Assembly: GCA_947642445.1 (NCBI GenBank)
Contig: CANRSF010000004.1
Span: 1 to 64,000 of the forward strand
Length of the DNA stretch: 64,000 nt
Reading direction: 5' to 3'
From: an uncultured Collinsella sp.
GTDB taxonomy: Bacteria > Actinomycetota > Coriobacteriia > Coriobacteriales > Coriobacteriaceae
The position numbers and the translations under genes are program-made. This document shows, piece by piece, positions 2,968 to 51,885 of the stretch (positions within the stretch are counted from its first letter, which is position 1; each line of letters begins with the position of its first letter). Under the pieces are notes generated by a model, which was given only the letters and a program-made list of their open reading frames with translations, had not been told where the DNA came from and ran no database searches.

Positions 2968-3013
2968 GTTTCCCCTTATAAAACCTGCCAAAATAAACCT
3001 GTCCCTTTTTGGT
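2968..3013 (-). repeat. GGGACAGG-core hairpin repeat, copy R2 (minus orientation)
   Basis: Reverse complement reads ccgaccaaaaagggacaggtttattttggcaggttttataaggggaaacg. Confidence 0.9.
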
Positions 3014-3066
3014 CGGTGCGAAATGGGTAATACTAAAGAGTTATCCGACCAGATGGGAATTAATCG

Positions 3067-3773: not shown

Positions 3774-6539
3774 ATGGATCAGGACCGCCAAAACAGCCAA
3801 CGCCGCGACGCGCAGAACACGGAGCGCGAGCAGGATTTTACGACCTACCGCACTGCCCAAAGTTCAAACGACATGGTGCCGACGGTGTTTCGCCGCGGTG
3901 TCTACCGCACGATTCGCGGCAGCCTCAAACGCTTCTTGTCCATTGTCGTGATCACCGCGCTCGGCGTGAGCGTGATGTGTGGCCTTAAGGCGGGTTGCGA
4001 GGATCTGTGCGATTCGGTCGACGCTTACTTTGACCAGCAGAATGTTTATGACATCAACGTGCAGTCGACCTATGGTCTGACCGATGACGATATTGCCGCG
4101 ATCCAAGAGGTCGATGGCGTCGAGACGGCCGAGGGCATCTATACCGAGACCGCCTATACCGCCGTGGGTACGACGCGCGAGCGTGTCGTCGTACAGAGCC
4201 TCTCCAAAGAGAATATTGACCAACCGGTGCTAGTGCGCGGCGAGCTGCCCGAGACTTCGGGCGAAGTGGCAGTGACCTCACGTTTTTTGAAGGCTTCGGG
4301 CAAGAAAATCGGCGATACGGTGAGCTTTGCCGCCAACGATGCGAGCTCGTCGAACCAAAGCGCCAAGGACCAGTTTGCCGATGGGGACTACACCATTACG
4401 GCTGAGGTCCTCGATCCCACTGATGTGAGCTCCGACTCGACAGTCAACGCCTTCCGTGCCGCCTCGGCCGCGGACTACAAGTTCTACGTGAGTGAGGATG
4501 CCGCGACGTCGTCGTCCTATTCCGCGATCCACGTGATCGTCGAGGGAGCCAAGGACCTCAACTCCTATTCCGATGCCTATACGGCAAGGATTAACGAGGT
4601 CAAGGGCAATATCGAGAAGATTCGTGACGAGCGCGAAAAAGCGCGTGCCCAGGAACTGACGGCCGATACGCCGGCGAGCTTGGACGCGGCCGAGCGTCAA
4701 GCGAACATGGTCTTTGGGATTGAACAGGACAACATCAACCGTATGGCCGAGGGCAGCGAGGAGCGCGCCCAGGCTCAGGCCGATTTGGACCAGCGCCGCG
4801 CCGCCGCCGACCAGCAATTCGCCGATGCCCGCGCCGAGATTTCCGACCTTGGCGAATGCACCTGGTACATCCAGGACCGTGGCAACATCGCGAGCTACTC
4901 GAGCGTCGAGAGCGACAGCTCCTCGATCGAGGCCATCGCCACGGTCTTCCCGTTCATCTTCTTTATCGTCGCCGTGCTCATCAGCCTTACCACCGCCACG
5001 CGTATGGTCGAGGAGGAACGCACGCTCATCGGCCTGTATAAGGCGCTCGGTTATTCGCGCGGGCGCATTCTGTCCAAATACGTGGACTACTCGCTGTGGG
5101 CGTGCCTGATCGGCGGCGTGCTCGGCAATATCATCGGATTTGTGGGCCTGCCGCTGTTCCTGTTTACGGTGTTCGACGACATGTACTCGCTGCCCCAGAT
5201 GTTGCTTTCGTACGACATTGTGTCCTCAATCGTCTCGGTGGCACTGTTTGCCGTGGGCGTGGTGGGCGCCACAATTATCGCCTGCCGCCACGAGATGGCC
5301 GAGACCCCGGCCTCGCTCATGCGCCCCAAGGCTCCGCGCGCCGGCTCGCGCATCTTGCTTGAGCGTATCGGCTTTATCTGGCGCCGCATGGGCTTTTTGA
5401 ACAAGGTCGCTGCACGCAACCTATTCCGCTATAAAAAGCGCGCCTTTATGACCATCTTCGGAATTGCCGGCTGCACAGCGCTCGTGATCTGCGGTATGGG
5501 CATCCGTGACACGTCGGTGGCGCTTTCGCCCAAGCAGTACGGGCATATCACGCGCTATGACTTGCTGGCGGTCGCCAATCCCGACGATTTTTCGCAGACG
5601 TGCGCGGCGTTGGACGAGCGCAACGCGGCCAATGATTCCAACGTGACCGTGACCTCGACCCTGCCGATTATGACCGACAACGTCACCTTTACATTCGGCG
5701 GAAAGAGCGAGACCGTGCAGCTGATCGTGGTGCCCGATGACCGCACGAACGATCTGGACGACTATGTTCGCCTTGAGGATGAGTCCAAAGAGCCGCTGTC
5801 TTTGCGTGACGGAGACGTGTATCTGAGCAAGAGTTCACAGCTGGTACTGGGGATTCAGCCGGGCGATACGGCGCACGTCCAGGATTCGTCGCTCAATGTT
5901 GCCAAGGTCAAAGTCAGCGACATCTCGCTCAACTATCTAGGCAACACGCTTTACATGACGCAGAGCACCTATGAGCGCGCGTTCGGTCGAAGTGCACGCC
6001 TTAACGGCGTCTTTGTGCTGCTTAAGGGTTCGTCGGCTGACCAGATTGCGTTTACCAACCGTCTTAAGAGCGATGGTTGGATTACGCTGTCGAGCACCGC
6101 CGAGCATTGGGAAAACTATGAGGCAAACTTTACGATTATCAATTCGGTCGTGGTGCTTGTGACCTTTATGGCGGCGTGCCTGTCGTTTGTGGTGGTATTT
6201 ACGTTGTCTAACACCAACATCTCGGAGCGCGAACGCGAGCTGGCGACTATTAAGGTGCTGGGCTTCCGTCGTGGCGAGGTGCACCATTACGTCAACAAGG
6301 AGACGTTGATTCTTACGGCGATCGGAGCCGCGCTGGGCGTTCCGCTGGGCGGCTTGCTGGCCGAGAGTTTTACGTACATTTTGCAGATGCCGTCATTGTA
6401 CTTTGACGTTGAGGTCGAGCCGCTGAGCTACGTGCTGTCCGTTCTGCTGGCCTTTGCCTTTACGTTTATCGTCAACCTCGCTACCAATCGCACCCTCAAC
6501 AAGATCGACATGGTCGGCGCCCTCAAGAGCGCCGAGTAA
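3774..6539 (+). CDS. ABC transporter permease, FtsX/MacB type, with large extracytoplasmic region
   Basis: Two FtsX-like TM blocks; follows the ATPase gene; ATG at 3774 preferred over the listed 3717 start. Confidence 0.9.
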   Translation: MDQDRQNSQRRDAQNTEREQDFTTYRTAQSSNDMVPTVFRRGVYRTIRGSLKRFLSIVVITALGVSVMCGLKAGCEDLCDSVDAYFDQQNVYDINVQSTYGLTDDDIAAIQEVDGVETAEGIYTETAYTAVGTTRERVVVQSLSKENIDQPVLVRGELPETSGEVAVTSRFLKASGKKIGDTVSFAANDASSSNQSAKDQFADGDYTITAEVLDPTDVSSDSTVNAFRAASAADYKFYVSEDAATSSSYSAIHVIVEGAKDLNSYSDAYTARINEVKGNIEKIRDEREKARAQELTADTPASLDAAERQANMVFGIEQDNINRMAEGSEERAQAQADLDQRRAAADQQFADARAEISDLGECTWYIQDRGNIASYSSVESDSSSIEAIATVFPFIFFIVAVLISLTTATRMVEEERTLIGLYKALGYSRGRILSKYVDYSLWACLIGGVLGNIIGFVGLPLFLFTVFDDMYSLPQMLLSYDIVSSIVSVALFAVGVVGATIIACRHEMAETPASLMRPKAPRAGSRILLERIGFIWRRMGFLNKVAARNLFRYKKRAFMTIFGIAGCTALVICGMGIRDTSVALSPKQYGHITRYDLLAVANPDDFSQTCAALDERNAANDSNVTVTSTLPIMTDNVTFTFGGKSETVQLIVVPDDRTNDLDDYVRLEDESKEPLSLRDGDVYLSKSSQLVLGIQPGDTAHVQDSSLNVAKVKVSDISLNYLGNTLYMTQSTYERAFGRSARLNGVFVLLKGSSADQIAFTNRLKSDGWITLSSTAEHWENYEANFTIINSVVVLVTFMAACLSFVVVFTLSNTNISERERELATIKVLGFRRGEVHHYVNKETLILTAIGAALGVPLGGLLAESFTYILQMPSLYFDVEVEPLSYVLSVLLAFAFTFIVNLATNRTLNKIDMVGALKSAE

Positions 6540-6590
6540 CCTGCCAAAAAGGGACAGGTTTATTTTGGCAGGTTTTATCTGGGCAAACGC
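6537..6590 (+). repeat. GGGACAGG-core hairpin repeat, copy R3, at the stop codon
   Basis: TAAcctgccaaaaagggacaggtttattttggcaggttttatctgggcaaacg; TAA 6537-6539 is the permease stop. Confidence 0.92.
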
Positions 6591-6939: not shown

Positions 6940-7010
6940 TAAGTTGCGGTGATATACGGACTGTTTGGCGCTTTGGAGCTTCAAAACAGTCCCTATCTCA
7001 CCGCAACTTA
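6940..7010. repeat. 27-bp imperfect inverted repeat with 17-nt loop
   Basis: taagttgcggtgatatacggactgttt / aaacagtccctatctcaccgcaactta. Confidence 0.85.
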
Positions 7011-10671: not shown

Positions 10672-10832
10672 GACGGCTCCTCTCGTCCTGTTAGCGCAAT
10701 TGTCGCAAAAGGAGCGCGGGCATGATGGCTCAACTTGGTGAGCGGCGCGGAATTAAGCACGGAATGAAGAGTGCGGCGCTGGCGTGGCGGGGTATGCTGG
10801 AGGGGACCATCAACCCAGCGAAAGGGGAGAGC

Positions 10833-12218
10833 ATGACGGATCAGGAAACGCCCGAGCGCGCGCATGTGACGGCCGATGATATCGAGGCCGCCAACGATCT
10901 TATCGACTTTATCGAGGCATGCCCCAGCATGTTCCATACGGCGGCGACCATTATGGCCGAGCTCGACGAGGCGGGCTTTACCTACCTGTCCGAGAATGCG
11001 GCGTGGGACATCGAGCCGGGCGGGCGTTATTACACGCAGCGCAACACCTCGAGCGTTGTTGCCTTTAAGGTGGGCGAGGACCTGGCCGCGACGTGGGGCG
11101 AGGACGGCGTTGCCGGTGACTATCATTTTCAACTCACGGCGTCGCACAGCGATTCTCCGACGTTTAAGGTCAAGGCCGTGCCCGAGCTCGACGGCGCGGG
11201 CGAGACGCTGCGCCTGAACACCGAGGCCTACGGCGGCATGATCGACTACACCTGGTTCGACCGCCCGTTGGCGCTTGCGGGCCGCGTGTTGGTGCGCGAG
11301 GGCGACCGTATTGAGAGCCGCCTGCTTGCCACCGAGCGCGAGGTCGCTATTATCCCGAGCCTTGCCATCCACATGAACCGCGGCGTTAACGAGGACTTTG
11401 CTCCCAACCGAGCCATTGATCTGTGCCCGCTCATCAGCGCCGGTGACCTTAAGCAGGGAGATTTTGACGCCCTGATCGCTGACGAACTGGACGTTGAGCC
11501 CGAGCAGATCCTGGGCCGCGATCTGTTCCTGGTCAATCGTCAGGATGCGCGCATTTGGGGCTGGGCCGACGAGCTCATCTCGACGCCCAAGCTCGACGAC
11601 CTGGCCTGCGCCTACACCTCACTGCAGGCATTTTTGGGTGCCGAGAACGCGCACGACGTTTCGGTCTTCTGCTGCTTTGATAATGAGGAGGTTGGCTCCG
11701 AGACCAAGCAGGGCGCCATGTCGACGTTCTTGGCCGACGCGCTGCGCCGCATCAACGGATCGTTGGGCTTTGACGACGAGTCGTACCACCGCGCACTTGC
11801 CGCCTCGATGCTTGTAAGCTGCGACAATGCACATGCCGTGCACCCCAACCATGCCGAGAAGTGCGATGCCCGCAATCAGGTGGTACTCAACGGCGGCATC
11901 GTCATCAAGGAGGCCGCCAACCAGCACTACTGCACCGACGCCTTTAGCCGCGCGGTGTTCCAGGCCATTTGCGATGACGCCGACGTGCCCACGCAGGCCT
12001 TTGCCAACAAGAGCGATATGGCCGGCGGTTCTACCCTGGGCAATCTGTCCAATATGCAGGCGAGCATGCATGCCGTGGACGTGGGCCTGCCGCAGCTTGC
12101 CATGCACTCGAGCTACGAGACCGGCGGCGTGCGCGACGTGATGTACGCTATCCGCGCCCTCACCGCCTTCTACGAGCGCAACCTAACCATCAACGGCGCC
12201 GAAAGTGTGGAGCTCTAA
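10833..12218 (+). CDS. M18 family aminopeptidase
   Basis: LTASHSDSPTFKVK, VFCCFDNEEVGSETKQGA, SCDNAHAVHPNHAEK; ATG 10833 after AAAGGGGAGAG. Confidence 0.93.
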   Translation: MTDQETPERAHVTADDIEAANDLIDFIEACPSMFHTAATIMAELDEAGFTYLSENAAWDIEPGGRYYTQRNTSSVVAFKVGEDLAATWGEDGVAGDYHFQLTASHSDSPTFKVKAVPELDGAGETLRLNTEAYGGMIDYTWFDRPLALAGRVLVREGDRIESRLLATEREVAIIPSLAIHMNRGVNEDFAPNRAIDLCPLISAGDLKQGDFDALIADELDVEPEQILGRDLFLVNRQDARIWGWADELISTPKLDDLACAYTSLQAFLGAENAHDVSVFCCFDNEEVGSETKQGAMSTFLADALRRINGSLGFDDESYHRALAASMLVSCDNAHAVHPNHAEKCDARNQVVLNGGIVIKEAANQHYCTDAFSRAVFQAICDDADVPTQAFANKSDMAGGSTLGNLSNMQASMHAVDVGLPQLAMHSSYETGGVRDVMYAIRALTAFYERNLTINGAESVEL

Positions 12219-12262
12219 AACCTGCCAAAAAGGGATGTTAATTTTGGCAGGTTTTATCTGGG
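12216..12262 (+). repeat. GGGACAGG-core hairpin repeat, copy R4 (core partly deleted), at the stop codon
   Basis: TAAaacctgccaaaaagggatgttaattttggcaggttttatctggg; TAA 12216-12218. Confidence 0.88.
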
Positions 12263-13492: not shown

Positions 13493-13503
13493 AGCGTCGA
13501 GGG

Positions 13504-13531
13504 GTTCCGGCGTTTGGTAAAACGCCGGAAC
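13504..13531. terminator. Hairpin terminator downstream of the 13535-14470 gene
   Basis: gttccggcgtttggtaaaacgccggaac. Confidence 0.65.
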
Positions 13532-14490: not shown

Positions 14491-14531
14491 CCTACCAAAA
14501 AGGGACAGGTTTATTTTGGCAGGTTTTATCA
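14491..14531 (+). repeat. GGGACAGG-core hairpin repeat, copy R5
   Basis: acctaccaaaaagggacaggtttattttggcaggttttatc. Confidence 0.9.
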
Positions 14532-27861: not shown

Positions 27862-27980
27862 GGTAGAACACCTTTCTCAATAAAATCCCTAGCGGTTGAG
27901 TAGAGTTATACCCTATCGCGCTCAAATGGGTCAACACGAAATAACTCAGAAACATACTTACCTTATGGGTTATTCTACCT

Positions 27981-28010
27981 ACCATAAAGGGACAGGCACC
28001 TTTGTGGTGG
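27981..28010 (+). repeat. GGGACAGG-core hairpin repeat, variant S1
   Basis: accataaagggacaggcacctttgtggtgg. Confidence 0.85.
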
Positions 28011-28045: not shown

Positions 28046-28261
28046 TCTCAATCTGTAACAGTTAGACGAGGAAATGGGTTCTACCTGTTACAGATCGAGA
28101 TTTTCTCTTCAGGGGGATTTGAATGTCTCGATCTGTAACATCTGGACGGCTAAAAGGTCTCAATCTGTTACAGATTGAGACAAAGGTCAGGGGCAAAGAC
28201 GGTTTGTCTAGATCTGTAACAGTTAGACGGGAATTCGGGCCCTAGATGTTACAGATTGAGA
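28046..28261. repeat. Six-copy array of a 15-nt motif (TCTCRATCTGTAACA) in alternating orientation, 40-41 nt period
   Basis: Motif starts 28046(+), 28086(-), 28126(+), 28166(-), 28207(+), 28247(-); spacers 25, 25, 25, 26, 25 nt. Confidence 0.95.
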
Positions 28262-28279
28262 TAATCGCGCCGCGAAAAT

Positions 28280-28318
28280 AAAAACCTCCGCAGGGATGCT
28301 TCCCTTGCGGGGGTTTTT
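28280..28318 (-). terminator. Terminator overlapping the dxs stop codon
   Basis: aaaaacctccgcagggatgcttcccttgcgggggttttt. Confidence 0.9.
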
Positions 28319-32146: not shown

Positions 32147-33004
32147 ATGATCAAGATGTTCGCGAGTGATTTAGACGGAACGCTGCTGAACGCACTGCAT
32201 GAGGCGGATGGGACCATCCGCCGTGCCATCCGCGAGCTGACCGAGGCTGGCCTGCATGTGGTTCCCGCGACCGGGCGCTCGACGTTGCCGATCGGCGAGC
32301 ATGGCTTTACGGGCCTGGCGCTTGACGCCTGCTGCTCCAATGGCTCCATCGTGCGCGACAGCCATGGCGAGGTGCTCAAAACCTGGACCATCGACCCACA
32401 GATCACTGAGGAGCTGCTCAAGGCGTTCCCGGACATTTGCTTTGATTGCTCCACGCCCGATGGCATGTTTTCGAGTGGATCGTTCGAGATGCATCAGGCG
32501 GGCTTTAAAAAGGACAGCCCCATCAAGCGCATCGTGATGCGCGGTATGCGTGCGCGTGGCGGGTACCACGAGGAACAGTATTTCGACCAGTCGATCGGCG
32601 ATATCTTGCGTCACGATGTATGCAAGATCAACTGCCGCGTGATCTCGCCCGAGTTGGAGCGCGACCTTAAGGCGTATCTTGCCGAGCGATCGGACCGCGT
32701 GGTCAACGCGCCGTTTGACCCGGTGATGTTCGAGATCACGGATGTGGCATGCAACAAGGGCGAGAGTGTGGCCTGGCTGGCGGGCTACTACGGCATTGCC
32801 GAGGACGAGGTTGCGGTTTATGGCGACGGCGGAAACGACATCGCCATGCTCAAGCGTTTCCGCCACAGCTACGCGACCAAAAACGCTAGCGATGCAGCTA
32901 AAGCCGCCGCGAGCGCGACCATCGGCAACTGCATGGTCCACGCCGTCCCCAAACACATGCTCGCCACCATGCATAAGCAGAGCTCCCGCACCATCATCGA
33001 ATAA
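32147..33004 (+). CDS. HAD-superfamily hydrolase, Cof type
   Basis: FASDLDGTLLNALHEADG, ATGRS, AVYGDGGNDIAMLKRF. Confidence 0.93.
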   Translation: MIKMFASDLDGTLLNALHEADGTIRRAIRELTEAGLHVVPATGRSTLPIGEHGFTGLALDACCSNGSIVRDSHGEVLKTWTIDPQITEELLKAFPDICFDCSTPDGMFSSGSFEMHQAGFKKDSPIKRIVMRGMRARGGYHEEQYFDQSIGDILRHDVCKINCRVISPELERDLKAYLAERSDRVVNAPFDPVMFEITDVACNKGESVAWLAGYYGIAEDEVAVYGDGGNDIAMLKRFRHSYATKNASDAAKAAASATIGNCMVHAVPKHMLATMHKQSSRTIIE

Positions 33005-33030
33005 GGGACAAAGGGACAGTCCCTTTGCCA
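33002..33030 (+). repeat. GGGACAGG-core hairpin repeat, variant S3, at the stop codon
   Basis: TAAgggacaaagggacagtccctttgcca; TAA 33002-33004 is the HAD stop. Confidence 0.75.
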
Positions 33031-33058
33031 CAATCTAAATATTGCCTTTACGTGTTGA

Positions 33059-46132: not shown

Positions 46133-46954
46133 ATGCTCAACGACTTCTACCATATGCTTGATCCCGTCGCGATTTCGGCGGGGCCCATCACGATTTACTG
46201 GTATGGTCTGGCCTATGTGGTCGGTGCCCTGCTCACGGCGGTCGTCATGTACCGCACGCAGCGTCGCTGGGGCTTTAGCATCACGATTGACGACCTGACG
46301 AGTGTCGTGGTCGGCGTGGTCTTTGGCCTCATTATCGGTGCGCGCCTGTTCTACGTCGTCTTTTACGGTGATGGCTACTACTGGGCGCACCCGCTCGAGA
46401 TCTTTGCCACCAACGAGGGCGGCATGAGCTTCCATGGCGGTTTGGTGGGCGGTATTATCGGCGGCATCATCGTGTGCCGCATGTATAAGCTCGACGCATG
46501 GACTTTGGCAGACCTTGCCGTCATCGGCGCGCCGCTGGCCCTGTGCCTGGGCCGTTGTGCCAACTTTGTCAACGGTGAGCTGTGGGGCAAGCCGACCGAT
46601 CTGCCCTGGGGTGTGGTCTTTGGCGGGACTGCGGGCGATATGCCGCGTCACCCCTCCCAGCTCTACGAGGCATTTCTTGAGGGCATTGTGCTTTTTTGCA
46701 TTCTGCAGGTGCTCAGCCGCAAAAAGCCGCTACTGCCTCAGGGTACGTTTATGGGCGTGTTCGTGATGGGATACGGCATCGTCCGCTTCCTCGTCGAGTT
46801 CGTGCGCGTGCCCGACGCCCAGCTTGGCTATCTGCTGGGCGGCGTCATCACGATGGGGCAGCTGCTGAGTCTTCCGCTCGTGATCGCCGGCCTGGCGCTC
46901 ATCATCTTCGCGCGACACCGCAACCGTCCCCAGCGCATCTACCTCGACGCCTAA
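46133..46954 (+). CDS. lgt: Prolipoprotein diacylglyceryl transferase
   Basis: SFHGGLVGGIIGGI, LGRCANFVNGELWGKPTDLPWGVVF, HPSQLYEAFLEG. Confidence 0.95.
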   Translation: MLNDFYHMLDPVAISAGPITIYWYGLAYVVGALLTAVVMYRTQRRWGFSITIDDLTSVVVGVVFGLIIGARLFYVVFYGDGYYWAHPLEIFATNEGGMSFHGGLVGGIIGGIIVCRMYKLDAWTLADLAVIGAPLALCLGRCANFVNGELWGKPTDLPWGVVFGGTAGDMPRHPSQLYEAFLEGIVLFCILQVLSRKKPLLPQGTFMGVFVMGYGIVRFLVEFVRVPDAQLGYLLGGVITMGQLLSLPLVIAGLALIIFARHRNRPQRIYLDA

Positions 46955-46993
46955 CCACCACAAAGGGGACACAGGCACCTTTGTGGTGGTTTT
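46952..46993 (+). repeat. GGGACAGG-core hairpin repeat, variant S2, at the stop codon
   Basis: TAAccaccacaaaggggacacaggcacctttgtggtggtttt; TAA 46952-46954 is the lgt stop. Confidence 0.9.
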
Positions 46994-47030: not shown

Positions 47031-49214
47031 GTGAAGGATTCCGATCTCTCCACAACGGCTGCGCGCGACGCGGCCCGCATCGTCTGGTTTAAGCGCTACC
47101 CCGCCAAGCAGACGCTCATCGCATTTCTGCTCGCGCTGTTGGCGACCACGGCGTTTTCCATCGATCCCGCGCCGGTCTCGAGCAACGCAGTCTTGGCGAT
47201 TGACCCCAAAGCCTCGGGCATGCTGTACGTGTGCTACGAGGTGCTTCTCTCGTTTGCCGGCCATACCGACGCGGTCATGCTGCTTGCGCTTGCCTGCCTG
47301 CTCACGCTGCCGTTTCGCTACGTATTCTTTGGCCGCGGCGATGCTTGGCGTCCTTCGGTGATCCTTCCGTCGCTGTTCTTTGCCGTCTGCATGGTGTTTG
47401 GCCGCAGCTACGACCTCACCGATTCTGCCGAGATCGTACTCGGCGACAAGGCTCGCATCATCTGCGCCTGGATAGGCGGTGCGGGCTGGATGCTCTTGGC
47501 GGTCGTTGCCTTCTACCTGGCTTTTGAGTGTCTAGATTGGCTGAGCTCTCGGCGCATTCCGTTTTCCGAAGCGCACTTTGGCCGCGTATGGCGTGTGGCT
47601 CACGCCGTGCTCTCGGTCCATCCCTTTGCCGGGCCCTTCCTGGTGCTTATGGTCGCCTGGGCGCCCACGCTCATCGCTTCGCTGCCCGGCCTTTTTATGG
47701 GAGATACGGGTGCGCAGATTCGCCAGTGGTTCAACTACCCCAACGGCACGAGTGACTACCTGCGTCTGCTCAATCCCAATGTGTTGCTCAACGGACATCA
47801 CCCCGTGGTGCACACGGCTATCATCGGTTCGTGCGTCCAGCTGGGGCTTTCACTGTTCAACAGTGCCAACGCAGGTCTTGCCATCTACACCTGCGCTCAG
47901 TTCGTCATTACGGCCGCCTGCATGGCCTATTCCATCTCGTCGCTGCGCAAGCTGGGCGTGAGCTTGCCGATTCGCGGCGTGATCTTGCTGTTCTTTGTGT
48001 TTATGCCCATGTTCTCCAACTACGCGGCCCTGCTTACCAAAGATGTGCTGTTTGCCGACGCGTTTTTGGTGCTGTTGGTGCAGGCCGTGAAGCTCGTGGC
48101 ATGCGGCCTGCCCCGTCGCGATGCCAATGCCGAGCGTGCGGGCGAACAGAGGCCCGTGCTCTTTGCGCGCCATGACTGGCTGCTGCTCGCTCTGGGTGCC
48201 ATGGGTTCCACGTTTCTGCGCAACGGCGGTCTGGTCTTTCCGTTGGCGGTCTGCGTGATTGCGGCGGCGTTTTGCGCATGGGATGTACATGTCGCCCGTC
48301 GTGCGGCTAAGCAGACGGGCACCGCGGTCTCATGCGCCACGCCGCGCTTCCGCTGGGTTGGCGTCCTCGCGGTGCTCGCACTCTGCCTTGCCTCTAATAT
48401 GTACTTCACCAAGGTCTTTATGCCGGCGCACGACATTACGCCTGGTTCCAAGCGCGAAATCCTCTCGATTCCGTTCCAGCAGACGGCTCGTTTCGTCCAA
48501 AAGCACGACGGCCTCAACTCGGGCGTCAACCCTACGGTTAAGGAGGACGGCACCATCGTGGAGGCTCCTTGCGACGGCTTGGTGACCGACGAAGAGCGTG
48601 CCGTGATCGACCGTGTGCTCAAGTACGAGAATCTGGGCCGCCGCTACAACCCGGATAAGTCGGATGCCGTCAAAAATTGCTTTAACGAGTACGCCTCGCA
48701 GGAGGACATCAAGGCCTATTTTGAGGTATGGGCCCAGATGTTCAAAAAGGATCCCGAGTGCTATATCTCGGCGCTCATCAATAACTATTACGGCTACTTT
48801 TATCCGAGTGCCCGCGATGCGTGGGTCTACAGCACGGCGCGCAGTGCCGAGATTATGGCGCGCCCCGATAATCTCAAGTACTTCGACTTCCATCCGGTCG
48901 ATAGCAAGGTTGTGCGCTGGTGCGACCACCTGATTAACCTGTATCGCGTGGCAGTACAACGCATCCCGTTTATTTCGCTCACCATGAGCTCGGCCACCTA
49001 TGTGTGGATCATGATCGCCGTGGTGGTCTACCTGCTGCGTCGTCATTCATGGCGTGCGCTGGCGATCTGGGTGCCGCTGTTGGGCGTGCTCGCCGTGTGC
49101 CTGATTGGCCCGTGCAACGGCTCGACCTACATGCGCTACCTGTATCCGGCCATCGCCTGCATGCCCTTCGCCATCGGCGCCACCGTCACCCGCAGCGACT
49201 TCCTCTGGTCCTAA
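47031..49214 (+). CDS. Large polytopic membrane protein (DUF6020-like, possible glycosyltransferase)
   Basis: Multiple TM segments; FMGDTGAQIRQWFNYPNGTSDYLRLLNPNVLLNGHHPVVHTA loop. Confidence 0.72.
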   Translation: MKDSDLSTTAARDAARIVWFKRYPAKQTLIAFLLALLATTAFSIDPAPVSSNAVLAIDPKASGMLYVCYEVLLSFAGHTDAVMLLALACLLTLPFRYVFFGRGDAWRPSVILPSLFFAVCMVFGRSYDLTDSAEIVLGDKARIICAWIGGAGWMLLAVVAFYLAFECLDWLSSRRIPFSEAHFGRVWRVAHAVLSVHPFAGPFLVLMVAWAPTLIASLPGLFMGDTGAQIRQWFNYPNGTSDYLRLLNPNVLLNGHHPVVHTAIIGSCVQLGLSLFNSANAGLAIYTCAQFVITAACMAYSISSLRKLGVSLPIRGVILLFFVFMPMFSNYAALLTKDVLFADAFLVLLVQAVKLVACGLPRRDANAERAGEQRPVLFARHDWLLLALGAMGSTFLRNGGLVFPLAVCVIAAAFCAWDVHVARRAAKQTGTAVSCATPRFRWVGVLAVLALCLASNMYFTKVFMPAHDITPGSKREILSIPFQQTARFVQKHDGLNSGVNPTVKEDGTIVEAPCDGLVTDEERAVIDRVLKYENLGRRYNPDKSDAVKNCFNEYASQEDIKAYFEVWAQMFKKDPECYISALINNYYGYFYPSARDAWVYSTARSAEIMARPDNLKYFDFHPVDSKVVRWCDHLINLYRVAVQRIPFISLTMSSATYVWIMIAVVVYLLRRHSWRALAIWVPLLGVLAVCLIGPCNGSTYMRYLYPAIACMPFAIGATVTRSDFLWS

Positions 49215-49250
49215 CTTGGTGCATTGGGGTCAGGTTACTTTGCACCAAAG
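49212..49250 (+). repeat. GGGGTCAGG-core hairpin repeat, variant S4, at the stop codon
   Basis: TAActtggtgcattggggtcaggttactttgcaccaaag; TAA 49212-49214. Confidence 0.8.
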
Positions 49251-51311: not shown

Positions 51312-51836
51312 ATGGCTTTTAACACGAAGGTCGATGTGGCCGATACCGAGCTCGAGGCGAATGAGGCCGTCGTCGATACCGGAGACGTGACGCTCGAGGA
51401 CGAGGCGCTCGTCGAGGCCGAGTCCGATGCGGACGAGGACAACGAGGAGATGGACGAGGAGGCGGACGAGTCCGAGGACTCGCTGACCTATTCCAACGGC
51501 GTGATCGAGAAGATCGTCGCCATGGCCACCCGCGAGGTGCCGCACGTTCTGGGCATGAAGGGCAACCTCATGCACTTTGTGCAGGAGCAGTTTGGTGCCG
51601 AGAACCTGACCAAGGGCGTGACGGTCGAGGTCACCGACGACAACCGCGTGGTCGTCAACATCTCGGTCATCATCGAGTACGGCGCCTATGCGCCTGCGAT
51701 CTTTGACGACGTTAAGGCGCGTGTCACCGAGCGTCTGGCCGCGATGACCGGCCTTGAGGTGGCGGGCGTCAACCTGCGCATCGAGGATGTCATCACCCCC
51801 GAGGAGTACGAGCACCGCACCAGCCAGCACGAGTAA
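51312..51836 (+). CDS. Asp23/Gls24 family envelope stress protein
   Basis: YSNGVIEKIVAMATREVPHVLGMKGN ... VEVTDDNRVVVNISVIIEYGAYAPAIFDDVKARVTERLAAMTGLEVAGVNLRIEDV. Confidence 0.93.
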   Translation: MAFNTKVDVADTELEANEAVVDTGDVTLEDEALVEAESDADEDNEEMDEEADESEDSLTYSNGVIEKIVAMATREVPHVLGMKGNLMHFVQEQFGAENLTKGVTVEVTDDNRVVVNISVIIEYGAYAPAIFDDVKARVTERLAAMTGLEVAGVNLRIEDVITPEEYEHRTSQHE

Positions 51837-51885
51837 CCTACCAAAAAGGGACAGGTTTGTTTTGGCAGGTTTTATCTGCGTAAAC
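51834..51885 (+). repeat. GGGACAGG-core hairpin repeat, copy R6, at the stop codon
   Basis: TAAcctaccaaaaagggacaggtttgttttggcaggttttatctgcgtaaac. Confidence 0.92.

Follow-up and report, generated by a model that had tools for sequence, protein, structure and literature searches.

Hairpin repeats at stop codons in Collinsella: several families with a shared core, and one that has probably outlived its transposase

Introduction

Short repeated hairpins that begin exactly where genes end raise the question of how they came to be there and why they persist. We met this question in a draft Collinsella genome of 2.02 Mb, here called the host genome, within a stretch of 64,000 nt (the window; contig 4, positions 1-64000). 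The window is syntenic with C. aerofaciens NZ_OY725717.1. A first-pass annotation had recognised in it ten copies of what was taken to be a single superfamily with variable arms, seven of them at TAA stops. Target-site preference or donation of stop codons was offered as the reason, with any mobiliser acting in trans. REP/RAYT systems are usually discussed as repeats living together with their transposase. The analysis below leads us to conclude that the Collinsella repeats are very likely non-autonomous, REP-like elements of the TIRYT type, that the transposase of one family, R, has since been lost almost everywhere, and that same-strand copies of this family survive at stops.

Methods

The host genome was reassembled from sequence stretches that cover 2.018 of 2.024 Mb. 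Genes (1719) were predicted with a hexamer model and repeats were scored with profile models. R and its transposase were followed through 45 Collinsella genomes, and the R4 and R6 sites were compared across 30. We left out the 6:75743 site, where the relatives' gene matches at only 83-88% and is possibly paralogous.

Results

All ten copies are present where the first-pass annotation had put them. They do have a core in common, GGG(G)[A/T]CAG, but the single superfamily dissolves into four sequence families (A, B or R, C and D) and one chimera. A fifth family, E (CACTCATTGGGGACAGACTTAAATGAGTG), has no copies in the window. The R hairpin is CCTGCCAAAAAGGGACAGGTTTATTTTGGCAGG and is followed by 17 nt of conserved tail, TTTTATCTGGGCAAACG; the hairpins of the other families are CCACCACAAAGGGGACAGGCACCTTTGTGGTGG (A), TTGGTGCA..GGGG[AT]CAGG..TGCACCAA (C) and ATGTGACAAAGGGACAGTCCCTTTGTCACAT (D). 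Copies are near-identical within each of the five families, and the profile models place 43 copies of A, 36 of R, 13 of C, 20 of D and 22 of E in the host genome. R has 29 genome sites at three or fewer mismatches, as against none for a reversed-pattern control, and GGGACAGG occurs 111 times as against 46 for its control. The only constant base preceding CCTGCC in R is an A, and no GTAG or GTGG tetranucleotide was found on R 5' of the hairpin foot. Within the window, Rfam gave zero matches at gathering score.

Seven of the ten copies, all on the forward strand, indeed start 0-2 nt after a same-strand TAA. Among those of family R, R1 (1834-1866) lies 2 nt past the TAA of gene 1331-1831, with a tail, TTTTATCTGGGGAAACG, that reaches about 1883; R3 (6540-6572) follows the TAA of an ABC transporter permease gene (3774-6539) at 0 nt; R4 (12221-12251), whose core carries a 'GGGATGTT' deletion, is 2 nt past that of an M18 aminopeptidase gene (10725-12218); and R6 (51837-51869), which has a native terminator 3' of its tail, is at 0 nt from that of an Asp23 gene (51312-51836). 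S2 (46955-46989, family A) and S3 (33005-33032, family D) follow the TAA of lgt (46133-46954) and of a HAD hydrolase gene (32147-33004), both at 0 nt, and S4 (49216-49248, family C, core GGGGTCAGG) is 1 nt past that of a DUF6020 gene (47031-49214). R2 (2984-3016, reverse strand), S1 (27978-28010, forward) and R5 (14491-14523, forward) adjoin no same-strand stop. R5 is antisense to its neighbour genes and 20 nt from the upstream one. S1 is the chimera, in which the left half of R is joined at GGGACAGG to the right half of family A.

Many of these positions are occupied in relatives as well: R1 in G003; R2 in C. aerofaciens, G003 and G010; R3 in G018, G003 and G002, with remnants in G013 and C. 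aerofaciens (a stub, TAACCTGCC) and in G010 (TAACCTGTCC); R5 in C. aerofaciens; and S2 in C. aerofaciens, G010 and G018. S3 in C. aerofaciens shares a base with its gene, the first A of the element being the last A of the TAA.

The window holds other repeats too. Doublets of TGTCTCGATCTGTAACA / TGTTACAGATCGAGACA at 28124-28140 and 28050-28300 are REPIN-like and have about 96 genome copies at three or fewer substitutions. An inverted pair of another family (GTTGCGGTGGAATAGGGACTGTTT; 6943-7007) has a REPIN-like layout and about 25 genome matches, and a hairpin family of the form GTTxCGCGGTTTGGTAAAACCGCGxAAC, at 13503-13530 and elsewhere, has about 15 clustered genome copies.

Across the host genome, comparison with random positions, a check proposed at first pass, bears out the placement at stops. 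Eighteen R copies follow a gene on the same strand, and 15 of them begin at 0-3 nt from its stop, where random placement in the same spacers predicts 0.47, and none of 20,000 random trials reached 15. The same distance holds for 8/14 codirectional copies of D (0.7 expected) and 2/5 of C. Family A is looser, with 3/32 at 3 nt or less and 20/32 at 20 nt or less (6.6 expected for the latter). The stop is TAA at all 15 stop-adjacent R copies, although TAA makes up 43% of stops genome-wide (P about 3e-6 by genome frequency). For C. aerofaciens, the syntenic record as annotated by NCBI gives matching stop spacings (R6 0, S4 1, S3 -1). In G061, 10 of 12 same-strand R copies lie at 0-3 nt, all behind TAA, and the sites are nearly all shared. 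In contrast, R copies in antisense or divergent orientation have scattered distances.

These hairpins are strong and T-rich on their 3' sides, as would be expected of ordinary intrinsic terminators with cores alike by chance. Family A copies may in fact act as terminators, since their tails are TTTT and a further terminator usually does not follow. As an account of the repeats as a whole, however, we regard this as highly improbable. For genes free of elements, the median distance from the stop to the start of an ordinary terminator is 32 nt, with 5% within 3 nt, and R is therefore much tighter to stops than terminators are; a separate terminator-like hairpin was seen after 8 of the 15 stop-adjacent R copies. 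Moreover, R, A, C, D and E are families of near-identical copies, and R and E flank transposases.

The search for an IS200-like gene found a likely mobiliser of R in other genomes. In G003, G018 and G066, a Y1 transposase gene lies between two inverted R hairpins, which agrees with mobilisation in trans from outside the window. Among the 45 Collinsella genomes, the gene is intact only in G003 and G066 and is broken in G018. In the G003 protein, a Y1_Tnp domain (PF01797, 30.3 bits) is accompanied by the motifs HIH and YIHLNP. At the corresponding locus of the host genome (G000:C1:165719-169234) the transposase is absent and a single gene is inverted between the hairpins. Here A hairpins lie 16-20 nt past three TAA stops, at which G018 has R at 0-1 nt. 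Family E flanks a different Y1 gene in G013, and the host genome retains a 205-nt remnant of the E transposase gene between two E hairpins (G000:C2:81535-81739). No transposase adjoining families A and C was found, and for D the one candidate is a Y1 gene in G025 with a D-like hairpin next to it. Many further Y1 genes in the order have GGG[A/T]C-core hairpins of their own (L114, L117, L118, L119, L152, L158-L162).

The only Y1 transposase gene in the host genome, C32 (G000:C32:2160-2486, L001), was considered as the mobiliser of R and rejected: neither R nor any other core hairpin lies beside it, and its product is 37% identical to the R transposase. The protein has a C-terminal HTH (HTH_23 was matched here, with no HTH match in the G003 R transposase) and scores 55 bits against NCBIfam REP_Tyr_transpos, for which the cut-off is 80. 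An orthologue of C32 persists at a single locus throughout the C. aerofaciens group, as if the gene had been retained for some purpose.

R occurs in 24 of the 45 genomes, at 26-46 copies each, and is absent from the other 21, its distribution being restricted to one clade. Copy number is not higher where the transposase is found (33 in G003, 32 in G066, 33 in G018) than in G011, which has 46 copies and no transposase. Homologous R sites in relatives are almost always filled. Given the loss of the transposase from the host genome, we interpret R there as a fossil population with conserved positions.

The proposed comparison of empty sites succeeded in part. R-free alleles with the same TAA were found, but nowhere, C. 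aerofaciens included, was a clean two-sided empty site for R seen, homologous places being nearly all filled. Across the aerofaciens group, the R4 and R6 sites have the same stop followed by R, intact or decayed. More distant Collinsella have no R at these sites, and their stops are TAA, TAG or TGA. At R4, the alleles without R (C. aerofaciens, G006) have the same TAA and different downstream DNA, and at the R-transposase locus the R-free alleles of three genes likewise retain the same TAA. At the R6 site of G018 (L206/L279), a TAG stop is followed by an older R into which another R copy has been inserted (GAGTAGCCTACCAAAAAGGTAACCTGCC...), and the inserted piece starts with TAA.

These alleles bear on the idea that elements donate a stop codon by truncating the gene. 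In its favour, the 15 stops are without exception TAA, R's constant first A is often the third base of that TAA, and three D copies provide the upstream gene with a complete TGA. Because R-free alleles keep the same TAA and outgroup proteins at R4 and R6 end within about three residues, we conclude that R did not truncate genes. Donation by truncation is thus improbable, and we reject it as a general rule. A weaker form of the first-pass proposal stands: R contributes at most the last A of the TAA, and D can give a complete TGA.

Could the transposase instead prefer stops or stop-proximal DNA, for example DNA that becomes single-stranded at the point where ribosomes finish translating the nascent transcript? 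The extreme precision of R, in the host genome and in G061, and the exclusive use of TAA would fit such a preference. So would the Y1 loci: of about 20 inspected, at least 8 have a core hairpin no more than 12 nt from the stop of the transposase gene itself. Counter to this, the left flanks of R copies that lie elsewhere than at stops have neither TAA nor any other target in common, only the constant A, so that a fixed target site is unsupported. The antisense copies are scattered, and since most R sites are inherited, independent placement events are few. We consider targeting of stops unlikely.

The families also exchange parts. The left flank of S1 is common to three genomes through CCTAC[CT]A[AT]AAAGGGACAGG. 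In G061 this flank leads into an intact R, whose right half is followed by that genome's own downstream DNA, whereas in the host genome and C. aerofaciens it leads into the right half of A and then different DNA. A second chimera with R on the left and A on the right is present in C. aerofaciens where the host genome has a pure A, and in G018 most of one R copy has given way to an A hairpin, with the TAA before it unchanged. The breakpoints lie at the shared core and therefore indicate that the repeat families recombine there.

No compensatory changes were found in the R stems, in which 87.5% of cells are paired as against 88.9% after shuffling. Several stop-adjacent copies, including R4 and R6, have broken stems or core deletions. 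Together, these observations argue against strong selection on an RNA hairpin. They count against the suggestion that R is retained at stops for a role in the mRNA, where its hairpin would stall terminating ribosomes or guard 3' ends. The confinement of same-strand copies to the vicinity of stops while antisense copies scatter, and the conservation of R positions across species, would be consistent with such a role, although conserved positions may only reflect shared descent. Furthermore, a spacing of 0-3 nt is within the range in which E. coli REPs, at less than 16 nt from the stop, reduce translation, according to PMC12306157, which cites earlier work. We consider an mRNA role possible but doubtful.

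Discussion

In the reading that we prefer, that of REP-like elements with a largely vanished enzyme, each family would once have been mobilised in trans by an IS200-like Y1/HUH transposase of its own, encoded between two inverted hairpins. The repeats may have moved as single-stranded DNA hairpins handled by the Y1 enzyme, and A, C and D would also once have had transposases of their own. R would have expanded in an ancestor common to the C. aerofaciens group. The R transposase was then lost almost everywhere, including from the host genome, leaving about 30 copies at fixed positions. Same-strand copies would survive between the stop and the native terminator, the first A often doubling as the last A of the TAA. 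Both insertion and selection against damage to coding sequence or terminator probably contributed to this placement.

Insertion and purifying selection alone do not explain why R sits at 0-3 nt within a stop-terminator gap of about 30 nt. Targeting, selection for an effect on the mRNA and selective survival in the gap are all candidate causes of the exact placement. More speculatively, the R transposase or a single-stranded intermediate could have been directed to the ends of translated genes, coupled to the exit of the ribosome from the mRNA. This seems quite unlikely to us. If true, it would explain why same-strand copies lie at 0-3 nt, always behind TAA, with antisense copies scattered.

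With about 30 copies per genome, R is a REP-like population that persists at fixed positions although its transposase is gone from at least 21 of the 24 species. Comparing Collinsella strains that have an intact R transposase with strains that lack one makes the question of what places REPs at gene ends directly testable. The same comparison would allow a test of whether selection or only time accounts for the persistence of orphan REPs. In addition, the core-joined chimeras show how REP-like repeats rearrange gene ends. As far as the literature consulted shows, the exact abutment on stops, the coexistence of several Collinsella families, the persistence of orphans and the exchange joined at the core are new here; in that literature we found no description of them for TIRYTs, no publication on Collinsella REPs, and none linking GGGACAG to such repeats.

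Among known systems, E. coli REPs near termination codons resemble R in having a hairpin close to the stop of the upstream gene, as PMC12306157 describes. They differ in distance (up to 15-20 nt, compared to 0-3 nt for R), and in R there is no compensatory maintenance of stems. The GTAG REP/RAYT systems (REPtrons, REPINs) likewise consist of short intergenic hairpins downstream of genes, with a transposase between inverted copies. Their ends often supply TAG stops and the REPs are found no further than 20 bp from gene ends (PMC3733652), and REPs can directly follow the stop codon of a rayt gene (PMC2817692). Unlike these, R lacks the GTAG/GTGG head and compensatory stem changes, has its core inside the hairpin, and has copies that outlast the transposase.

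The closest counterparts are the TIRYTs, Y1 transposases with terminal inverted repeats that share GGGGWSAS (Di Nocera et al. 2013, PMC3733652). Most TIRYTs belong to TnpA_Y1 subclass 2.1, with HTH extensions (PMC6006769), and the TIRYT repeats of the former paper are probably subclass 2.1 of the latter. As in TIRYTs or TIRtrons, a Y1/HUH transposase is flanked by inverted repeats (R in G003, G018 and G066; E in G013), it has a Y1 domain and HUH and Y---NP motifs (HIH and YIHLNP in the G003 protein), and moderately abundant repeat families occur in the same genomes. An HTH-like C-terminal extension is seen in related proteins such as C32 and gave no match in the G003 R transposase. The GGGGWSAS motif recurs as GGGGACAG in A and as GGGGTCAG or GGGGACAG in C; R and D have AGGGACAG, which departs from it by one base. 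Collinsella differs in its several coexisting families, exact stop abutment, near-extinct R transposase and core exchange. Nevertheless, judged by core motif and gene arrangement, the place of the Collinsella repeats is with the TIRYT repeats.
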